From: Spiribacter salinus M19-40
GTDB lineage: Bacteria > Pseudomonadota > Gammaproteobacteria > Nitrococcales > Nitrococcaceae
Assembly (NCBI RefSeq): GCF_000319575.2
Contig: NC_021291.1
Location: 682,001-746,000, forward strand
Direction of reading: 5' to 3'
Length of the DNA stretch: 64,000 nucleotides
Shown: positions 13,907 to 34,548 of the stretch, one piece after another
Layout: every line of letters starts with the position of its first letter
Numbering within the stretch: the first letter of the stretch is position 1
Program-made: the position numbers and the translations under genes
Notes under the pieces: model-generated
The model's database searches: none
What the model was told of the DNA's origin: nothing
Seen by the model: the letters and a program-made list of their open reading frames with translations, nothing else

Positions 13907-13941
13907 GAGCGCCGACCTTCGCGTGGCGGTGGTCGGCGCTC
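13907..13941 (+). terminator. Strong hairpin after rpsA
   Basis: GAGCGCCGACC (13907-13917) and GGTCGGCGCTC (13931-13941) are perfect 11-bp arms around a 13-base loop, 12 bases after the rpsA stop. No T-run follows, so it may stabilise the rpsA mRNA 3' end or attenuate transcription into ihfB rather than act as a full intrinsic terminator. Confidence 0.5.
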
Positions 13942-17746: not shown

Positions 17747-19024
17747 TCAAAAGCTGTAGCGAAGCCGGGTGTACAGGTTGCTGTTGTCTTCCAGCTGGGT
17801 ATGAAAGGTCCACTCGTCTTCACCGCCGAACAGATTCCCACCCACGGTTCCAAATAGCCGGTCACTGAAGCGGTACCGAGCGCGGGGCCGCAAGTAGTAG
17901 TCCTCGTCAGAGGGCGAGACGAAGCTGAACAGCGACAGCGTGAGGTCCTGCTGCATTAGCTGCCAGGTGATGCGATTGGTGATCAGGTGGCGATACTCAT
18001 CCGGCGCGTAGGGGCGCTGCGCATCTGGCGTGGCGGCGACCAACGCGTCGTGGTCCTGGGTCCACTCAAGATAGTACTGCCAGCCAAGGGTCAGGTTGCC
18101 AACAGGTTCATGTGTAAACCCGGCGAGGAAGCGAAGCTGGTCTTCCTCGGCGTCATACCATGCCGTCTCCAGATTGCCGATGCCCTGTCCAATCGGTCGG
18201 CGCACGCTCGCGCCAAAGGCGTTCAAGCGCGGAAAGTAGGGCGTTTGACTGTTCGGGTCCTGACCGCTCGGCTGTTTTTCATAGCCGCTATAGGCGTAGC
18301 CGGCGTACTCGGTGCCGTTCACTGTCTGGTAGACGCGCAGCGCGAATTCGCTATCGTCCACAAGTTCGTCGCGGTCGACCGGGTCCACGCGTGTGCTGGT
18401 GCGCTGGCCGGCCTGCGGTGAGAAGTAGGATAGCCGCTCGCCTTCGATGTACCGATTCGGCTGTGCAACCGGCATCCACACCACTTCAACGTTAACCGGC
18501 CCATACCAGGACAACCGCAAGGCATCGCTTGGGGCTTTCAGGTATTCGTCATCACGGCCATTAAAAAACGAGACGTAGTCTTTGGGGAAGAGATCATTGA
18601 GGAATACGAGATCGCCCGTGCCCCAGGTCAGGGTCTGACGGCCCGCCTTCACGTCGATTTGATCCGTCACCGTCCCGGAAAGCGTTGCCTCCCGCAGATC
18701 ACCCCGGCCGCCATCTTCAATACCATCGGCCCAGACATCCGCTTTGAGCACGGCTTCAAAGCGCCCGAATTGACGCTCACCCTCCAGTTGGGCACGCAGC
18801 TCACTCAGGGTCGCGTCTTCCTCCAGCGTGGGATCGTTTTGGGTTCGTCCGGCATACGCACCCTCGATAAACCCGTACCACTGCCAGCCTTCTGGCTCCT
18901 CCGCCCATGGTTCATCCCCCCAATCGTCGCCATTTTCCCACGGGTCAGCCTCGGTCTGTGCCGGTGCGGGCCCGACAACAGCCAGGGTAATGATCAGGGT
19001 CGATAACCAGTGGCGTGTCTTCAT
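17747..19024 (-). CDS. Putative outer-membrane beta-barrel protein in an RND/LolA-like cluster
   Basis: 425 aa from the ATG at 19022-19024, which gives the signal peptide MKTRHWLSTLIITLAVVGPAPAQ. The mature part opens with a strongly acidic stretch rich in Asp, Glu and Trp, then alternates aromatic and polar residues (GWQWYGFIEGAYAGR, GNLTLGWQYYLEWTQD). It ends in LYTRLRYSF, a terminal Phe typical of BAM-assembled barrels. It resembles the DUF1302/alginate-porin-like barrels often encoded beside MMPL transporters, but the family is assigned by appearance only. It is the last gene of a three-gene run (transporter, LolA-like protein, barrel). It may be the outer-membrane exit or acceptor for a lipid or hydrophobic substrate; that is inference. 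Confidence 0.75.
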   Translation of the reverse strand: MKTRHWLSTLIITLAVVGPAPAQTEADPWENGDDWGDEPWAEEPEGWQWYGFIEGAYAGRTQNDPTLEEDATLSELRAQLEGERQFGRFEAVLKADVWADGIEDGGRGDLREATLSGTVTDQIDVKAGRQTLTWGTGDLVFLNDLFPKDYVSFFNGRDDEYLKAPSDALRLSWYGPVNVEVVWMPVAQPNRYIEGERLSYFSPQAGQRTSTRVDPVDRDELVDDSEFALRVYQTVNGTEYAGYAYSGYEKQPSGQDPNSQTPYFPRLNAFGASVRRPIGQGIGNLETAWYDAEEDQLRFLAGFTHEPVGNLTLGWQYYLEWTQDHDALVAATPDAQRPYAPDEYRHLITNRITWQLMQQDLTLSLFSFVSPSDEDYYLRPRARYRFSDRLFGTVGGNLFGGEDEWTFHTQLEDNSNLYTRLRYSF

Positions 19025-19038
19025 CGTCGGCCTCCCAG

Positions 19039-19842
19039 CTACCGGCGCAGCCACTCGCGGGGCGGATTGCGCAGCGAGCGCTCGCTGAAAATATTGTCCG
19101 GCAATCCAACGTCATACTCGGAGTAACGGAACTGGGTGATGGTCTCGCCACCACTGTCGAGGTCCTGCATGCGGACTTCGGTACCGGTGGGATAACCATC
19201 GATCGTCTCGACCTCCGTGACTTCCATACGGCGGTAGATTTCACCGGACTCCCGCTGATAGGCCGTGCGCATGGGCAAGAGGGTGTCCCGATCAATCCAG
19301 CTGCGATAGCGGGCAAATTCCACGTTGTCAGGGTCTCGCGGGGTGCTCTCGATAACGTAATAGGCTTCCGTTGTCTCAACGAGCTCATGGCGGTCCTCGC
19401 CAGTGCCTCGACCGGAGATATCCTCATAATAGAAATGTGAACCAACGAAACTGGTGCGTTTATCACCTGAGGAGATCCGTTTAACCAGGTCGAGGCCGGG
19501 CAGATAAAGCCAACGGTCATCGGAATCGCCGACCTGCTTTTCCACCCGGAAGACGGTGCCGCGGATATCCGCCGGCCGGCTGAACACCACGAGGTAGCGT
19601 TGATCGCCGCCGTCTTCGACATCCTTTCTCAGTAGAGTGAACTGGCGACGCTGGCGATTACCGTCATCATCAGCGATCAGCATTCGGGCGGCGGATCGGC
19701 CGTCGTCGCCCGCGTAATACGAGGCCTCGTTAGCCGCCTCGACGATCGCTACCGGGTCGGTCATGGTCTCGGCGAATGCCGGCACCGTGATGAGCGCGAG
19801 ACTCAGGGCGGCGGCGCCGGTGTATAGCGTACGTGATTTCAT
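19039..19842 (-). CDS. LolA-like outer membrane lipoprotein-sorting family protein (periplasmic)
   Basis: 267 aa. The signal peptide is MKSRTLYTGAAALSLALITVPAFA (cleavage near 24). The domain resembles LolA-like proteins encoded beside MMPL transporters: RQRRQFTLLRKDVEDGGDQRYL, FSRPADIRGTVFRVEKQ, RWLYLPGLDLVKRISSGDKRTSFVGSHFYYEDI and TGTEVRMQDL. Such folds make a half-barrel that carries acyl chains across the periplasm. The start overlaps the transporter stop by four bases (ATGA), so the two are translationally coupled. It is not LolA itself, which is shorter and usually lies elsewhere. The cargo is unknown. Confidence 0.85.
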   Translation of the reverse strand: MKSRTLYTGAAALSLALITVPAFAETMTDPVAIVEAANEASYYAGDDGRSAARMLIADDDGNRQRRQFTLLRKDVEDGGDQRYLVVFSRPADIRGTVFRVEKQVGDSDDRWLYLPGLDLVKRISSGDKRTSFVGSHFYYEDISGRGTGEDRHELVETTEAYYVIESTPRDPDNVEFARYRSWIDRDTLLPMRTAYQRESGEIYRRMEVTEVETIDGYPTGTEVRMQDLDSGGETITQFRYSEYDVGLPDNIFSERSLRNPPREWLRR

Positions 19843-22439
19843 GGTGTGTCCTCCGAAGGGGTATCGCTCGCCGGGTGCGTATCCGGCATGAGCCTGTTGC
19901 GCATCAGCCTCAGCAGGGCAGGTAACAGGATGATCGAGGCGAGGGCAGAGGCTGCCATGATGCTCGCCAGAAAGATCCCGACCGTGTTGTAGGGCACAAG
20001 CGGCGCGGCCAGCAGCGGCAAGAAGCCGACCGCGATGACGATCGCATTGCGACTGATCGCGCGCGCCGGCTCTTTGAACATGCGCCGCATCGTTTCCGTG
20101 AAGTTCCCAGTCAGCCGATAGGTCTCACGGCTGCGCTCGATAAAGTGAATGGCAAAGTCCACCGACAGCCCGAGCGTGAGCGAGGAGAGCACCGCAATGG
20201 GCATGTCGTAGTACTTGCCGATCAGGCCCACTACGCCGTAAATAAGCGCAATACTCACGGTGAGCGGCACCATGGCCAATAGGCCAAAGATCACCGAGCG
20301 GAACAGAATCAGCATCATGAAAGCGACCATCACCCAGGCGATGGCCAGGCTCTGGGCCATGCCTTTCACCATGGCGTCCTGCCAGACCACGTTAATGTAG
20401 TTCAGGCCGCCCCAGCTCATCGAAACGCCGTCTGGCAACGGATTGTCCGCGATGTACGCCTCGGTGCGATCGACCACCGCCTCCATGTCCTGGTTGTCAC
20501 CGCTGCTGAGCTGTAACCAGAGGTTGGTGGCCTGATAATCAGGCGTCACTGTGCGCCAGAGATCCTGCGGTCGGTGTGATCCCTGGAAGCTCAGAATGGT
20601 CTGGGCGACGGCCTGTCGGCTCTCCGGGATGCGATAGTCACTGTCCTCGCCCCTGCGTAGCTCCCGATAGACAGTCCGCACGAGGTCGGCAAGCGTGTTG
20701 ACCTTGCCCACTTCCTCGCTCTCGACAAGATGATCCTGCAAGCCAGCGATGTAATCCAGTGCGGCCGGTCGCTTGAAGTAGTTGAGGTCACCCCGTGCAT
20801 CATCGACCAGGGTCAGCATGTCCTCCCAGAATGGATAGGCGGCGTCACTGGCGGCGAACATCTCATCCTCGACGGCCAGGCTGATTTCCTCGAGCTGCCT
20901 GTCGAAGTCCTCGGTTTTGGACTCGACATCCCCGCGAAGGCGCTGCCAGGTCTGTGTGATGTCCAGACCCGCCGCCTCGGCCTCGGCGAGGCGCTCGTCG
21001 ACCCGGGTCTCAAATCGCGAGGGCGCCTCATCGCCGACATCAGAGGACAGGCGCAGGTAGGCGCTGTAGGTGCCGGCAAAGTGCTCATTCAATACGCGGT
21101 CGGCCACACGAATCGGGTGATCCGACTGGAACCAGCGCACGGGGTTGTCGTTGACGGTGATCTGGCTGATGCCATAGGCCGCGAGGCCAAGACTGGCTGC
21201 GAAGATCAGCACAACGGCATGGGCGTGGCCAATGGCGAGGCGGCCAACCGCACTGAGTCCGCGCGCAAGTCGGGTGTCATCCGGCGCGCGTCGCCGCCCA
21301 GCGCTGCTCAGTGACGCCAGTCGCGCCGGCCCGAGGACCGCGGCATAGGCTGGAATGAATAGAATGGTGAGGACAAAGGCAAGCAGAATGCCACCCGCGA
21401 CGAACAGCCCAAAGACTTGAACCGGTGGTATCGGCGTGAACGCAAGGGAGGCGAATCCGATCGCTGAGGTGACCGAGGTGTAGAGCATGGGCGTGAATAA
21501 ATGGCCCATGACCTCTTTCATGGTTTCCCGCGCGCCGCGCTCCGGCCGGTAGCGATCGGCAAACTCCGAGATGATATGCACCGAGTCCACCACAGCGATC
21601 GGCATGAGAAAGATGGGAATCATTGAGCTCATGATGTGCACGGTGTACCCCATCCCAATCAGCGTCCCCACCGTGGTGAGCACGACGGCGAACGCCATCA
21701 GCATGGGCGCGATCACCAGGGTGACTGAGCGGAAGAACCACCACATCAATGCGAAGATCACCAGCGCGGCAAGCGGTGCGGAAATGGCCATCTGGATGAA
21801 CATCTCCACCCCGAAGGTATCCTCAGCCACTGGCAGCCCGGTGATGTGGTGGGTGTCTGTAACATCCAGATCAGCGATCAGTGATCGGATTTCGCCGGCA
21901 ATCCGGTAACTCTGGTCCTTGGCCTCGATCGGGACATAGAGCGCGGTCGCCTCGCCATCGCCCGAAACGAGTGTGTCGCGGTACAAGGGCAGATCGAGGG
22001 TGTTGTCACGCACATCCCGTGCGGCCTGTGCGTCAGCCGGTGGGCGGTTCATCATCCATTCAAAACGGATGGTGCCTGGGCCCGCCTGCTCGATGTTGTC
22101 CACCGTGGCCAGCGAGAGCAGATCCTGCCGAATCACCCCGTCGATCTCGGCAATGCCCTCACTCAGGCGATGCACGCCCTCCAGCGAGCGAGGATTGAAG
22201 ACGCCCTGCTCATGCGACTCATTCACCACCCCCACCACGATCATGTCGTGGAGGTTGAACTGATCCTTTATCACGTTGTGGCGTACGCGATCCGCCTGCT
22301 CTGCCGGGAGCATATTCTCGGGATCGGTATCGATCTCGATGAGTGGAATCAGCGCGGTCCCGATCAGCGTGAGAATCAGCGTGGTGAGAAACACGACGCG
22401 CGGGTGGTGCATGGCCAGCGTGGCGAGTCGGCGACCCAT
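19839..22439 (-). CDS. RND superfamily transporter, MMPL type
   Basis: 866 aa. The twelve-helix RND plan appears as two halves. Each has one N-terminal helix (VVFLTTLILTLIGTALIPLI, about residues 15-34; the second near residue 405), a large periplasmic loop and a five-helix cluster (about 220-370 and 690-850). The helices contain SSMIPIFLMPIAVVDSVHI and LSSLTLGLSVDFAIHF, with Asp residues suited to proton coupling. There is no adjacent membrane-fusion protein or TolC, unlike drug-efflux RND pumps. This fits the MMPL/HpnN branch, whose members export lipids to partner periplasmic proteins. AGGAG (22446-22450 on the minus strand) serves the ATG at 22437-22439. Expression should start from the palindromic promoter at 22462-22493. 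Confidence 0.88.
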   Translation of the reverse strand: MGRRLATLAMHHPRVVFLTTLILTLIGTALIPLIEIDTDPENMLPAEQADRVRHNVIKDQFNLHDMIVVGVVNESHEQGVFNPRSLEGVHRLSEGIAEIDGVIRQDLLSLATVDNIEQAGPGTIRFEWMMNRPPADAQAARDVRDNTLDLPLYRDTLVSGDGEATALYVPIEAKDQSYRIAGEIRSLIADLDVTDTHHITGLPVAEDTFGVEMFIQMAISAPLAALVIFALMWWFFRSVTLVIAPMLMAFAVVLTTVGTLIGMGYTVHIMSSMIPIFLMPIAVVDSVHIISEFADRYRPERGARETMKEVMGHLFTPMLYTSVTSAIGFASLAFTPIPPVQVFGLFVAGGILLAFVLTILFIPAYAAVLGPARLASLSSAGRRRAPDDTRLARGLSAVGRLAIGHAHAVVLIFAASLGLAAYGISQITVNDNPVRWFQSDHPIRVADRVLNEHFAGTYSAYLRLSSDVGDEAPSRFETRVDERLAEAEAAGLDITQTWQRLRGDVESKTEDFDRQLEEISLAVEDEMFAASDAAYPFWEDMLTLVDDARGDLNYFKRPAALDYIAGLQDHLVESEEVGKVNTLADLVRTVYRELRRGEDSDYRIPESRQAVAQTILSFQGSHRPQDLWRTVTPDYQATNLWLQLSSGDNQDMEAVVDRTEAYIADNPLPDGVSMSWGGLNYINVVWQDAMVKGMAQSLAIAWVMVAFMMLILFRSVIFGLLAMVPLTVSIALIYGVVGLIGKYYDMPIAVLSSLTLGLSVDFAIHFIERSRETYRLTGNFTETMRRMFKEPARAISRNAIVIAVGFLPLLAAPLVPYNTVGIFLASIMAASALASIILLPALLRLMRNRLMPDTHPASDTPSEDTP

Positions 22440-22461
22440 GAGTGCTCCTGTCAGGTTTTTA

Positions 22462-22493
22462 TTTACTATATGCGTGCATACTCATATAGTAAA
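22462..22493. promoter_or_regulatory. Perfect palindromic bidirectional promoter/operator between the MMPL operon and arsR-type gene
   Basis: TTTACTATATG (22462-22472) and CATATAGTAAA (22483-22493) are perfect 11-bp inverted arms around a 10-base spacer. On the plus strand they spell -35 TTTACT (22462-22467), a 17-bp spacer and -10 TATAGT (22485-22490), toward the regulator. By symmetry the minus strand has -35 TTTACT (22493-22488), 17 bp and -10 TATAGT (22470-22465), toward the transporter operon. A nested TATGC-GT-GCATA (22469-22480) adds a second inverted repeat. AT-rich inverted repeats over the -10 are typical ArsR/SmtB operators, so the divergent regulator most likely binds here and controls both directions. 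Confidence 0.8.
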
Positions 22494-22522
22494 GACGACA
22501 AGCGTGTTTGAGGGTTGCCGTC

Positions 22523-22846
22523 ATGGCGCAAAACAAGTCCATGGAGCTGATCGCGCAGTACTTCCGGGTACTTGGCGATGCGCAGCGGCTGCGGATACTG
22601 CATTGCCTGCGCTCGGGGGAGCATACGGTGGGGCAAATCGCCGAGTTGACCGGCGCGAATCAGTCGAACGTCTCGAAGCACCTGGCGCTGTTGCGCTCCA
22701 GTGGGCTGGTGGGACGCCGCCAGGAGGGCAATCGCGCGTGGTTCGGTATCACCGCGCCGTTTATCTTCGAGCTTTGCGAGATTGTGTGCGACGGGGCTCG
22801 CGAGCGCCTCGAACACGAGCGCTCGCAGCTTGCGCTGATCGATTAA
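22523..22846 (+). CDS. ArsR/SmtB-family transcriptional regulator
   Basis: 107 aa from the ATG at 22523, with GAGGG (22510-22514) upstream; the TTG at 22508 is less likely. The winged helix-turn-helix is clear: FRVLGDAQRLRILHCLRSGEHTVGQIAELTGANQSNVSKHLALLRSSGLVGRRQEG, about residues 14-69. Three cysteines are present: Cys28 at the end of the RLRIL helix, and Cys85 and Cys89 in the C-terminal helix (ELCEIVCDGA). The classic metal-site motif ELCVCDL is absent. One Cys in the N-terminal helix plus one in the last helix resembles the thiol/persulfide-sensing BigR/SqrR group, but that assignment is inference. It is divergent from the MMPL/LolA-like/barrel operon. Confidence 0.88.
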   Translation: MAQNKSMELIAQYFRVLGDAQRLRILHCLRSGEHTVGQIAELTGANQSNVSKHLALLRSSGLVGRRQEGNRAWFGITAPFIFELCEIVCDGARERLEHERSQLALID

Positions 22847-22917
22847 CCGTCTCTTGCCCGAGTGCCGTCAGATTTCGGAGTTGCGTTATACTGACCGGCT
22901 AACGCGCTTCGGAGACG

Positions 22918-24030
22918 ATGCCAATGACCGTGCAGAGTCCATTCGCGGGCGCCTCGACCCGGCCCGAAACCGAGGCTCAGCCCGCCCGGGCGGCCTCCTC
23001 GATCCGTATTGAGGGACTGAGTAAGTCGTTCGATGGGGCGGTTAGTGCGCTCAGCGACATTACGCTCGAGATCAATCCCGGTGAGTTTTTCACGCTCCTT
23101 GGGCCTTCTGGATGTGGAAAGACCACGCTGCTCCGTCTCCTTGCCGGGCTTGAGTCGCCAGATGCGGGCACGATTTATATTGGCGACCAGCCGATGGCCG
23201 GCGTTCCGGCGCACCGCCGCAGCGTCAACACGGTTTTCCAGTCTTATGCGCTTTTCCCCCATCGGAATGTTCGGCGCAACATTGCGTTTGGCCTGCAGAT
23301 GCGTGGCACGGATGCTGCAGAGATCGATCGTCGCGTCGAGGCCATGGCCGCTTTAATCGGCATTGAATCCTTACTCGAGCGCGGTGTGCATCAACTCTCC
23401 GGGGGGCAGCGTCAGCGGGTGGCTCTCGCCCGTGCACTGGTTAACGAACCTGATGTCCTGCTGCTTGATGAACCGCTATCGGCCTTGGATGCGGGGCTGC
23501 GCGGCCGCCTGCAGGTCGAACTCAAACGCCTGCAGGATCAACTCGGTATGACCTTCGTGTTCGTGACCCACGATCAGGAAGAGGCGATGGTCATGAGTGA
23601 TCGCATGGCCGTCCTCGATGGTGGCGAAATTGCCCAGGTGGGAACGCCACAGGCGATTTATGAGCAACCCAGTGACCTCTTTGTCGCCCGTTTCATGGGC
23701 CATGAAAACCTCCTGCCGATTACCCACCAAGACGATGAGGGGATCGAGACCGCCCTAGGGCGGATTGAGGGTGTTTTCACCGCGGGAAGCCACCTCCTGT
23801 TGCGGCCTGAGGCCCTGAAACTGCACGCGACTCCGCAGGCAGCGCGTCCGCATTTTGAGGCGCAAGTCATCGAGTGCCTTTACCGTGGACCGGTGACCGA
23901 CTATCGGTTGCGTTGCGGAGAGGCCCAAATCGCCGTGCGCTGCGGTAACGAAGGTCAACGGCGGCCCGGCGTGGGTGAAACCGTTCAGGTGGAGGTTGCC
24001 CCGGCGGGCACCGCCACTTTGCAGGGCTGA
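22918..24030 (+). CDS. potA: Spermidine/putrescine ABC transporter ATP-binding protein
   Basis: 370 aa (ATG 22918; a second in-frame ATG at 22924 is also possible). Walker A is GPSGCGKTT (about residues 62-70), the Q-loop VFQSYALFPHRNV, the signature LSGGQRQRVALARAL (about 160-174), Walker B DVLLLDEP and the switch His THDQEEAM. The C-terminal ~100 residues form the TOBE regulatory domain (LLLRPEALKL). It is encoded with two permeases and a PotD-like binding protein in the order potA-B-C-D, the standard polyamine importer operon. Related ABC importers for other compounds share this layout, so polyamine specificity rests mainly on the PotD homologue. Confidence 0.9.
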   Translation: MPMTVQSPFAGASTRPETEAQPARAASSIRIEGLSKSFDGAVSALSDITLEINPGEFFTLLGPSGCGKTTLLRLLAGLESPDAGTIYIGDQPMAGVPAHRRSVNTVFQSYALFPHRNVRRNIAFGLQMRGTDAAEIDRRVEAMAALIGIESLLERGVHQLSGGQRQRVALARALVNEPDVLLLDEPLSALDAGLRGRLQVELKRLQDQLGMTFVFVTHDQEEAMVMSDRMAVLDGGEIAQVGTPQAIYEQPSDLFVARFMGHENLLPITHQDDEGIETALGRIEGVFTAGSHLLLRPEALKLHATPQAARPHFEAQVIECLYRGPVTDYRLRCGEAQIAVRCGNEGQRRPGVGETVQVEVAPAGTATLQG

Positions 24031-24042
24031 GGCCGACATCCG

Positions 24043-24933
24043 TTGCTGAAATCCGCTCGAGACAGCCTCCATCTGCTGGCTATCGTCGCGCCAGGGGCGC
24101 TTTTTATCGTCGTGTTTCTGGTGCTGCCGAGCCTCTATCTCATGGGGATGGCTTTTACGAGCACGGGGCCCTCGGGTCTTCCCGCATTGCCGTTCAGTCT
24201 GCAGGCGTTCCGCGAGCTTGCCGGGTTCGGTTTTCTTGGCTGGAGTCCGGGTAACCTCTACACGCTGTTGCGGTCGGTCTGGCAGACATTTCTGGCAACG
24301 GCGCTGGTCATCCTGCTGGCTTATCCCGCGGCCTATTACATCGCCTCCCGCCCGACCCGTTGGCGACCGCTGCTGTTGCTGGCCGTCGTGGTGCCGTCCT
24401 GGACAAATCAGGTGATCCGCTCAGTTGGGTGGATGAATCTCTTCGCTCCGGGAACACCCATCTCCGATTTTGCGGTGCTGATCGGGCTGACCGAGCCACG
24501 GATGGGGCTGTTTCCCTCTCAGTTCGCGGTGATCGTGGGGTTGGTCTATAACTTTCTGCCGTTCATGGTGCTGCCGCTCTATGCCGCGTTTGAGCGGCTT
24601 GATCATGCCCAGGTTGAGGCGGCGCGTGATCTGTTCGCCTCACCGCTCGCGGTGTTTCGGCATGCGGTGTTCCCGCAGACCCTGCCCGGATTGATGGCCG
24701 GTACCGTTTTGGTGGCCATTCCCGCATTCGGTATGTACGTGGTTACCGAGCTGCTCGGCGGCGGCAAGGCGACGATGATCGGCAACCTCGTCGCGCGGCA
24801 GTTCGCCGATGCGACCAACTGGCCCCTGGGCGCGGCCGGCGCCATTCTCATGATCTTGGCGACGGTCGGCGGGCTTTGGGTGCTCCGGCGACTCGGTCGA
24901 CGGCTCGGCGGCGATCGGGAGGTTGTCCTATGA
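24043..24933 (+). CDS. potB: Polyamine ABC transporter permease, PotB type
   Basis: 296 aa inner-membrane permease. The likely start is a TTG at 24043 with GAGG (24029-24032) upstream; the next in-frame ATG would delete the first membrane helix. Six hydrophobic helices are visible (such as LAIVAPGALFIVVFLVLPSLYLMGM near the N-terminus and TFLATALVILLAYPAAYYIA). The ABC coupling loop EAARDLFASPLAVFRHAVFPQTLPG (about residues 190-214) carries the EAA motif that contacts PotA. The stop overlaps the potC start by four bases. Confidence 0.9.
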   Translation: MLKSARDSLHLLAIVAPGALFIVVFLVLPSLYLMGMAFTSTGPSGLPALPFSLQAFRELAGFGFLGWSPGNLYTLLRSVWQTFLATALVILLAYPAAYYIASRPTRWRPLLLLAVVVPSWTNQVIRSVGWMNLFAPGTPISDFAVLIGLTEPRMGLFPSQFAVIVGLVYNFLPFMVLPLYAAFERLDHAQVEAARDLFASPLAVFRHAVFPQTLPGLMAGTVLVAIPAFGMYVVTELLGGGKATMIGNLVARQFADATNWPLGAAGAILMILATVGGLWVLRRLGRRLGGDREVVL

Positions 24934-25736
24934 GCGCGACGCTAGAGCGCAGCCTGCGGGCATTCTGGATTGTGTTGATGGTGTTTCTGTATGCGCCACT
25001 GGCCGTCGTGGTGTTTTTTTCATTTAACGCGATCAATTCCTCGGCCCGCTTTGCCGGCTTTTCACTGCGCTGGTACGAACGGCTGTTCAGCAATGAGGCG
25101 ATCCTTTCAGCGCTGGCAAACACGGCGATCCTGGCCACCACATCGACCGTGCTCGGCGTGGCCATCGGTTTGCTACTGGGTTATGGGCTTTATCGCTATC
25201 GGCATCGCCGGCTGGCCTGGCTTATCTGGTTGATTTATCTGCCGGTGATCATGCCGGATATTGTGTTCGGGCTATCGGAGATGACGTTTTTCGTCACCCT
25301 GGATCAGCGCTTCGGCATCTTGAGCCCGGGGCTCGGCACCATGGTCATCGCACACGTGACCTTTCAGGTACCGTTTGTTGCCTTGCTGGTGCATGCACGC
25401 TTGCTCTCGCTCGACCCACAGCTTTTCGAGGCCTGTCACGACCTGTATGCGAGTCCTTGGCAGCGGGCGCGCTTTTTCATCCTGCCCGTACTGACGCCGG
25501 CGATCGTGGCGAGCCTGCTGCTGGCGCTCACGCTGTCGATTGATGATTTTGTGATCAGCTTCTTTACCGCGGGCCCGGATAGCACCACACTCCCGATTTA
25601 CATTTGGAGTGCGATCAAAAAAGGCGTTACCCCCGAGGTGAATGCCATTGCCACGCTGATGATTGTCGGCGTTTTCCTGGTGGCGTTAAGCAGCCTTGTG
25701 TTGCAGCGGCGCCCCGATCCGTCAGATCCATCGTAA
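24930..25736 (+). CDS. potC: Polyamine ABC transporter permease, PotC type
   Basis: 268 aa from the ATG at 24930 that overlaps the potB stop (ATGA). It has six membrane helices: the first is FWIVLMVFLYAPLAVVVFFSFN, and the second follows ALANTAILATTSTVLGVAIGLLLGYGLY. The EAA coupling loop is EACHDLYASPWQRARFFILPVLTPAI (about residues 168-193). PotC pairs with PotB to form the channel. Downstream, the potD ribosome binding site (AAGGGAG) overlaps the potC stop region, so the operon continues. Confidence 0.91.
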   Translation: MSATLERSLRAFWIVLMVFLYAPLAVVVFFSFNAINSSARFAGFSLRWYERLFSNEAILSALANTAILATTSTVLGVAIGLLLGYGLYRYRHRRLAWLIWLIYLPVIMPDIVFGLSEMTFFVTLDQRFGILSPGLGTMVIAHVTFQVPFVALLVHARLLSLDPQLFEACHDLYASPWQRARFFILPVLTPAIVASLLLALTLSIDDFVISFFTAGPDSTTLPIYIWSAIKKGVTPEVNAIATLMIVGVFLVALSSLVLQRRPDPSDPS

Positions 25737-25750
25737 GGGAGATCCATGCA

Positions 25751-26821
25751 ATGACCGCTCGTATCGCTTGCCGCTGCTTCATGCTCCTCAGCCTGTTGGT
25801 GCCATTGGCCTCTGTCTCGGCTGAGGACGCCGATACGCTGTACCTGTTTAATTGGTCGCAGTACATGGACCCTTCCATTATCGAGGCGTTTGAAGCCGAG
25901 CATGAGGTTGAAGTGGTAGAGAACTACTTCAACTCGAACGGGGAGATGTTCTCAAAGCTGCAGGCGGGCGGGGTGAGTCAGTACGACGTGGTTGTGCCCT
26001 CGAACTACTACGTGCCCCGGTTGATTGAGAGCGACCTGGTTCAGCGCCTGGACAAAGCGCAGATTCCGAACCTTGATAACTTGATGGAAACGTTTATTGA
26101 CCCGGCGTATGACCCGGGCAATGACTACTCCGCTGCCTATCAATGGGGCACCACCGGGCTGGTCTATGACCGCAGCGCGCTTGGCGAGCAGCCAGCAAGC
26201 TGGTCTGTGCTGTTCGATCCCGATGTTAATCCTGACGCGCCGTTTGCGGTGCCGGAGGATGGCCAGGTCACCCTGGGCGCGGCCTGTGCGTATCTGGGCC
26301 ACGGTTATGACTGCACTGATCGTGATGCACTGGAGGAGGCAGCTCGACTGGTGCTGGATGCCAAGGCGCGGGATAACTTCGCTGGGTTTATCCAGGGCAC
26401 GCCCGTGCTCCAGCAGCTTGTACGTGGATCGGTCAGTGCCGGGATGACCTTCAATGGCGACTATTTTTATCTGAAGGAAGAGGATCCCGAGGGGTTTGCC
26501 GACATTGAGTTCGTGATCCCGGAAGAGGGGGCGGAGATCTGGGTCGACACCATGATGATTCCGGCCGATGCCCCGAATCCTGAGCTCGCCCACGCCTTCA
26601 TCAACTTCATCCTGGATGCGGAAGTGGGGGCACAGCTGTCGAACTGGAACTACTACTCGAGCCCGAATGCGGCAGCGTTACCGCTGCTGAATGAAGTGCT
26701 CCAGGCGCCGCCGATCTCACCCACTGATGAGACAATGGAGACGCTGGCGTTCACCCCAAGCCTCATGGGCGATGAGCTGCAGTTTCTCCAGCAGATCTGG
26801 CGCGAGGTCGAGTCTCGCTAG
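25751..26821 (+). CDS. potD: Spermidine/putrescine-binding periplasmic protein
   Basis: 356 aa from the ATG at 25751, with a signal peptide (residues 1-~24, ending SVSA). Family motifs are LYLFNWSQYMDPSIIEAFE (about residues 30-48), YFNSNGEMFSKLQAGGVSQYDVVVPSNYYVPRLI (about 60-93) and YQWGTTGLVYDRSAL (about 129-143). Trp and Asp residues in such segments bind the amines in E. coli PotD. It captures polyamine in the periplasm and delivers it to PotBC. Its stop is shared with the converging pilD gene in the palindrome CTAG (26818-26821). Confidence 0.92.
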   Translation: MTARIACRCFMLLSLLVPLASVSAEDADTLYLFNWSQYMDPSIIEAFEAEHEVEVVENYFNSNGEMFSKLQAGGVSQYDVVVPSNYYVPRLIESDLVQRLDKAQIPNLDNLMETFIDPAYDPGNDYSAAYQWGTTGLVYDRSALGEQPASWSVLFDPDVNPDAPFAVPEDGQVTLGAACAYLGHGYDCTDRDALEEAARLVLDAKARDNFAGFIQGTPVLQQLVRGSVSAGMTFNGDYFYLKEEDPEGFADIEFVIPEEGAEIWVDTMMIPADAPNPELAHAFINFILDAEVGAQLSNWNYYSSPNAAALPLLNEVLQAPPISPTDETMETLAFTPSLMGDELQFLQQIWREVESR

Positions 26822-34518: not shown

Positions 34519-34548
34519 CTGCAGGCGGCGGTTTCAAGCCGCCTGCAG
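34519..34548. terminator. Bidirectional hairpin between converging proX-like gene and lldD
   Basis: CTGCAGGCGGC (34519-34529) and GCCGCCTGCAG (34538-34548) form a perfect 11-bp stem with an 8-base loop, between two converging stop codons. Neither side has a long T-run. It probably ends both transcripts. Confidence 0.6.

Follow-up and report, generated by a model that had tools for sequence, protein, structure and literature searches.

The spacer between a divergently oriented arsR gene and an RND transporter gene in Spiribacter salinus M19-40 contains a 32-bp inverted repeat, within which comparison of related genomes strongly supports both an ArsR/SmtB-type operator core and a promoter facing the RND gene. 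The best explanation for the pattern seen, to which we give a probability of roughly 0.64, is that an ancestral operator and RND promoter were accompanied by an offset arsR promoter, and that in this species arsR may have fallen back on the -10 element of the palindrome itself. Throughout, "the window" denotes the whole 64-kb stretch of DNA that was analysed.

The inverted repeat and its neighbouring genes

The sequence at 22462-22493 is TTTACTATATGCGTGCATACTCATATAGTAAA, a 32-bp inverted repeat in which the arms TTTACTATATG and CATATAGTAAA are exact reverse complements of 11 bp each around a 10-nt centre; 13 of the 16 symmetric positions agree over the whole site. The 83-bp spacer that contains the repeat separates arsR from the RND gene (Table 1). 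Matched strand by strand in the window genome, TTTACT-N17-TATAGT occurs on both strands of the palindrome, each copy agreeing with the consensus at 9 of 12 positions, and -35/-10-like pairs of two opposite directions are thus found on the same DNA. This is what the sequence-only reading had described, and a re-reading of the sequence together with a promoter scan confirmed it, as ORFs and family matches did for its placement of the site between a divergent ArsR-type gene and an RND/LolA-like/barrel operon.

Table 1. Positions in the window of the genes and of the observed and predicted elements of the spacer
Feature	Positions	Strand	Support and remarks
Inverted repeat, 32 bp, perfect 11-bp arms, 10-nt centre	22462..22493	.	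Read from sequence
Core, 26 bp, 12-2-12 geometry, ACTATATGCGTG-CA-TACTCATATAGT; predicted ArsR site	22465..22490	.	Geometry and conservation
RND operon -35, TTTACT, predicted	22488..22493	-	12/13 genomes; TTGCCT in the 13th
RND operon -10, TATAGT, predicted	22465..22470	-	12/13, same register; start expected near 22458
Candidate arsR -35, TTTACT	22462..22467	+	1/13 genomes; outer TTT not conserved
Candidate arsR -10, TATAGT	22485..22490	+	9/13; also operator sequence; start expected near 22497
GAGGGT at the TANNNT position; Shine-Dalgarno-like in the window	22510..22515	+	Alignment with the TANNNT of 10/13
arsR, 107 aa from ATG (112 aa from TTG at 22508)	22523..22846	+	Pfam HTH_5, NCBIfam HTH_metalloreg, ORFs
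RND transporter, MMPL/HAE3 type, 866 aa; AGGAG before ATG	19839..22439	-	ORFs, family matches
LolA-like outer-membrane lipoprotein-sorting protein	19039..19842	-	PF17131, E 7.8e-56
Probable outer-membrane barrel, weak DUF1302 match	17747..19054	-	PF06980, E 7e-4, below cutoff

Chance expectations were estimated from the 64-kb window and from pattern searches of the organism's own genome (1,739,487 bases); the S. salinus M19-40 paper (PMC3832224) puts the median length of intergenic spacers at 14-19 nt. Dinucleotide shuffling of the 83-bp spacer produced an inverted repeat with 11-bp arms (loop up to 20) in 1 of 20,000 trials; superimposed promoter pairs came up in 3 of 5,000 such trials and, when the whole window was shuffled, in 1 of 60, against one observed. 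Promoter-like sites in the window number 16 against a shuffle mean of 16.0, and perfect inverted repeats of the palindrome's size number three against a shuffle mean of 0.7 (maximum 4). Given these totals, each single element is weak evidence. Nor are the two promoters of one palindrome two independent observations, since a match on one strand forces a match on the other. The argument rests on conservation and not on the shuffle numbers. The two further perfect inverted repeats of the window, at 13907-13941 and 34519-34548, have arms of at least 11 bp and are G+C-rich.

The 107-aa regulator is a winged-helix ArsR-family protein, scoring 53 bits against HTH_5 (cutoff 22) and 79.6 bits against HTH_metalloreg (cutoff 55), and none of the NCBIfam equivalogs passes its cutoff for this protein. 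Among its relatives by sequence with solved structures are SmtB, CzrA and Rv0081. The motif C85-x3-C89 is invariant in an alignment of 20 homologues, which suggests a thiol-based sensor; C28 is found only in the 13 rows of that alignment that belong to the genus. At an arsR locus from Acidobacteria (L033, 3-2888, minus strand), the gene faces those for rhodanese, metallo-beta-lactamase-rhodanese, DsrE and TauE proteins, a sulfur-oxidation-like set that hints at a sulfur species as the ligand, at least at that locus, and provides a lead for the subfamily.

Among the 18 genomes with arsR, the order arsR-RND-LolA-barrel was found in all ten regions fetched, nine of nine from the genus and one from genome G028. 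Downstream of arsR, at 22918-26821, the ORFs look like a set of genes for a polyamine-type ABC transporter. At two other loci (L073 and L074), arsR also adjoins part of a homologue of the first of these genes.

Conservation of the probable operator core and the predicted RND-facing promoter

The core of the palindrome is a 12-2-12 inverted repeat, the operator form bound by ArsR/SmtB repressors (PMC8790569), and sequence comparison finds it beside the regulator gene and kept together with it. An arsR orthologue is present in 13 of the 14 genomes of the genus, and the same 13 have the RND gene. In each of these the core sits in the spacer of the divergent gene pair, at 22-29 nt from the start of RND, and is retained where the flanking spacer sequence diverges. 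The invariant positions of the 32, counted over the 13 genomes, are 4-6, 8-10, 23, 25-28 and 31-32. The 14th genome (G005, 99% complete) lacks both the arsR orthologue and the RND gene, its best ArsR match being a 37% relative, and has no match to the 32-bp pattern at up to two mismatches.

Across 54 genomes of the order, the 32-bp pattern with up to two mismatches was found in nine, in one place each and always in the arsR-RND spacer, against no matches for the reversed control; without mismatch it occurs in the window genome only. The remaining four genus genomes with the gene pair differ from the pattern at more than two positions. Within the 1.74-Mb genome of S. salinus, the exact core ACTATAT-N12-ATATAGT occurs once and the five other places retrieved carry two or three mismatches, giving six in total against nine for the reversed control. 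A genome-wide ArsR regulon was accordingly rejected at the search sensitivity used, no second site rising above background.

The inner motif ATAT-N12-ATAT (22468-22487) is exact in nine of the 13 genus spacers; the other four each depart from it by one base, always at the same place. It is also exact in four of four spacers with the divergent pair from another family of the order, and at the arsR gene of genome G016, where no RND match lies within the 3.3-kb locus. Of two arsR loci from Acidobacteria, one (L033) has the exact motif and the other (L032) was counted as a miss; the 20-mers of L033 and of the G016 locus (L014) are identical, on opposite strands. Loci L015-L018 were counted for this motif but not for promoters, and ArsR matches of less than 40% identity (L019-L030) were excluded from the spacer counts. 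Named genomes provided seven further loci. L031 is a repeat of the contig of L002, L032 and L033 were used, and L034 (Gammaproteobacteria), L035-L036 (Streptomyces) and L037 (Ignavibacteriae) were inspected for palindromes and excluded from all counts; L037 has one palindrome with 10 of 13 symmetric positions.

The 12-2-12 geometry, a core kept in 13 of 13 genomes, the joint absence of the genes from the 14th and the same geometry at distant arsR genes together strongly support the view that the core is an ArsR/SmtB-type operator, and the proposal that the palindrome is the likely operator was thereby upheld. A third, central half-site ATATAGT, which would yield the shorter palindrome ACTATAT-N4-ATATAGT, has seven of seven letters in five of the 13 genomes (L003, L005, L006, L007 and L011) and is degenerate in the other eight genus spacers, with four of seven letters in the window.

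The RND-facing promoter predicted within the palindrome is strongly supported as well. Both of its hexamers are kept in 12 of 13 genomes each, in agreement with the earlier claim for this direction, and across the 13 genomes it keeps one register and a 17-bp spacer; the -35 element agrees with TTGACA at four of six positions in every genome, and the single exceptional -10 element is TAAAGT. Each -10 element and the ACT of each -35 element are operator letters, so by themselves they provide no argument for promoters, and repressor binding alone may account for the conservation of both TATAGT hexamers. On the RND side, the AAA, which is not part of the 26-bp core, is kept in 12 of 13 genomes, with a chance of 0.0095 per genome if genomes are taken as independent. 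This right-arm AAA could instead be an extension of the operator or part of an arsR -35 region.

The arsR-facing side of the spacer

The arsR-facing half of the symmetry is conserved quite differently. TTTACT on the arsR side is found in the window genome alone among the 13, and agreement with TTGACA amounts to four of six positions in five genomes, three in five and two in three. The outer TTT, present in one genome of 13, is at chance level, the probability of at least one occurrence in 13 being 0.26 with genomes taken as independent. Ten of the 13 genomes moreover have another candidate arsR -10 element, and the claim that arsR has a mirror-image promoter with a separate -35 element gained no support from the comparison. 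Of the expectation that related spacers would conserve the arrangement, the part concerning the genes and the operator core held, and the part concerning full -35/-10 symmetry did not.

In the spacer of the window, both arsR-facing sites with at least 8 of 12 consensus matches use the TATAGT of the palindrome, and a sigma-70-like scan of 21900-23000 at 9 of 12 returned no further site on either strand. Starts at 22458 and 22497 are consistent with the short leaders predicted (19 and 26 nt) and their Shine-Dalgarno-like motifs. Other arsR-facing promoter-like sites were found in L002, L003, L005, L006 and L007.

The other candidate arsR -10 element is a TANNNT hexamer that starts exactly 16 nt beyond the palindrome in 10 of the 13 genus genomes. 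Shuffling of the ten spacers that contain it placed such a hexamer at one offset in at most four of ten genomes (30 of 20,000 trials). This set of ten was picked after the absence from the other three was known, and the test was repeated on all 13, where at most five genomes shared an offset (3 of 20,000). With one member of each close pair (L003, L007) dropped, the hexamer is found in 8 of 11. The 16 nt between palindrome and hexamer have a pairwise identity of 0.06-0.75, and a T stands five bases before the hexamer in ten of ten. The hexamers agree with TATAAT at just three or four of six positions, and only one of the ten genomes (L011) has a promoter-like site of 8 of 12 there. The hexamers of L002-L005 contain an ATG in frame, so conservation of a start codon could explain the hexamer in these genomes but not in the other six.

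At the corresponding position the window has GAGGGT, which keeps A2 and T6 and agrees with the consensus at two of six positions. Site and ATG are 29 nt apart, just as in L005 and L007, whose hexamers are TATGCT and TATCCT. If arsR begins at the ATG at 22523, GAGGG has the position of a Shine-Dalgarno sequence, and the arsR mRNA of the window species should then begin upstream of it; this reading of GAGGG depends on that ATG, there being an in-frame TTG at 22508. In the other two genomes that lack the hexamer (L009 and L010), the site is followed by the start codon after 11 and 10 nt, respectively, and the hexamer position falls in coding sequence. A start from the palindrome -10 element would there fall inside the only Shine-Dalgarno sequence (GGAG), which makes the same fallback awkward for these two. 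On the RND-protein tree, much of which is unresolved and which has the window row on a long branch, the hexamer-less state needs at least two changes. Taken together, the comparison suggests that the genus probably shares this hexamer as the promoter of arsR, its -35 region lying in the right arm of the operator, and that the window species lost it. In L005 and L007 the hexamer ends 7 nt before an in-frame arsR ATG and no Shine-Dalgarno sequence is apparent by eye; arsR may be translated from a leaderless mRNA in these two.

Regulatory model, alternatives and relation to known systems

Built on the observed sequence, geometry, conservation pattern and gene linkage, the preferred model predicts repressor binding, the activity and start sites of both promoters, a ligand and an order of evolutionary events. 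The palindrome would act as the 12-2-12 operator for the divergently encoded ArsR/SmtB repressor, and its 32 bp would contain the entire core promoter of the RND-LolA-barrel operon, with the -35 element in one arm and the -10 element in the other, so that RNA polymerase would be kept off this operon when a repressor dimer is bound. Since the arsR promoter would be covered by the palindrome or lie just downstream of it, arsR would also repress itself. Displacement by a ligand that perhaps reacts with the thiols of C85-x3-C89 would switch on both directions. The ancestral arsR would probably have used a separate -10 hexamer that began 16 nt past the operator; the window species would have lost this hexamer and arsR would probably start about 7 nt past the TATAGT of the palindrome, which would leave the two promoters superimposed in this species.

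The main competitor, which follows the sequence-only reading, takes the fully symmetric promoter pair as the functional unit and the operator at once, with polymerases competing and the symmetry itself under selection. Symmetric promoters were reportedly defined in a 2021 paper. The pair is perfect on both strands in the window and rare in shuffles, the short leaders with their Shine-Dalgarno-like motifs fit the two predicted starts, the second T of the arsR -35 element is present in 10 of 13 genomes, and five of 13 reach four of six in that element, with a chance of 0.076 for five or more. This model is nevertheless unlikely, given that the arsR-side TTT, in one genome and at its chance level, contrasts with the RND-side AAA in 12, and that most of the genus has the alternative -10 candidate.

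The asymmetric conservation would also suit a palindrome that is operator and RND promoter only, with arsR relying on another promoter that is weak or escaped recognition, for example one upstream within the RND gene or the degenerate hexamer at 22510, whose A2 and T6 are kept. We consider this quite unlikely, because GAGGGT has two of six consensus letters, both arsR-facing sites of at least 8 of 12 in the window spacer use the palindrome's own TATAGT, and the sigma-70-like scan of 21900-23000 at 9 of 12 yields nothing else. That the palindrome has nothing to do with ArsR and is a structural or terminator element, or an AT-rich inverted repeat that arose by chance, is scarcely credible: the window does contain three perfect repeats of this size, but the place and letters of this one are kept in 13 of 13 genomes, the gene pair is jointly missing from the 14th, and no terminator-like site was called at the palindrome.

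The predicted operator resembles those of SmtB/smtA, ZiaR/ziaA and AzuR/nmtA, in which a 26-bp repeat with 12-nt halves and a 2-nt centre lies beside the regulated gene; ZiaR is divergently transcribed, and the AzuR site overlaps a predicted -35 element (PMC8790569). It differs from them in having TATAGT in its arms on both strands and in facing an RND-LolA-barrel operon, the targets described there being metallothionein (nmtA), smtA and ziaA (PMC8790569). As at the Pc and Pr promoters of pLS20, candidate promoters of opposite direction coincide or partly overlap and a putative regulator motif covers the core promoters; pLS20, however, has many motifs, looping and activation (PMC4207663), whereas the palindrome would be one site of simple repression. 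Divergent regulator and target genes also share a small promoter region at acrA/acrR and soxS/soxR of Escherichia coli, where acrR faces an efflux operon and opposing polymerases cannot bind at once (PMC12825309). The perfect two-way symmetry, seen in one genome of 13, is probably a minor variant of a well-known arrangement.

Judged by its predicted starts, the palindrome does not qualify as a bidirectional promoter in the published sense, which requires a shared -10 element and divergent starts 7-25 bp apart (PMC10268837); unlike the bidirectional promoters of E. coli, it has separate -10 elements and predicted starts 39 bp apart. The polymerase competition put forward in the sequence-only reading is possible by geometry. 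It is weakened by the finding that five tested bidirectional promoters of E. coli are basally too weak to compete, competition appearing when one direction is activated (PMC12825309). A search of titles and abstract openings returned, among the matches listed, no ArsR operator doubling as a mirror-symmetric divergent promoter, which is weak evidence of absence, and a look-up in one paper on S. salinus (PMC5818414) found no mention of RNA-seq, transcriptomes, transcription starts, primer extension or promoters.

For the salt-pond bacteria studied here, the model predicts a target operon and an operator for a C-x3-C subfamily of ArsR regulators that faces RND-LolA-barrel transport. It is a tentative suggestion that in this streamlined genome the built-in symmetry of the operator absorbed the loss of arsR's own promoter; if it did, the genus would show both the ancestral and the derived state. 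On this view, since a 26-bp 12-2-12 operator with TATAGT arms comes close in length to a 29-bp sigma-70 promoter with a 17-bp spacer, a change in the outer triplet alone could make a one-directional operator-promoter strictly mirror-symmetric for both genes. With a nearly fixed operator and RND promoter and a variable arsR-facing side, the 13 spacers form a natural series and would offer a test bed for the joint evolution of operators and divergent promoters and for polymerase competition.
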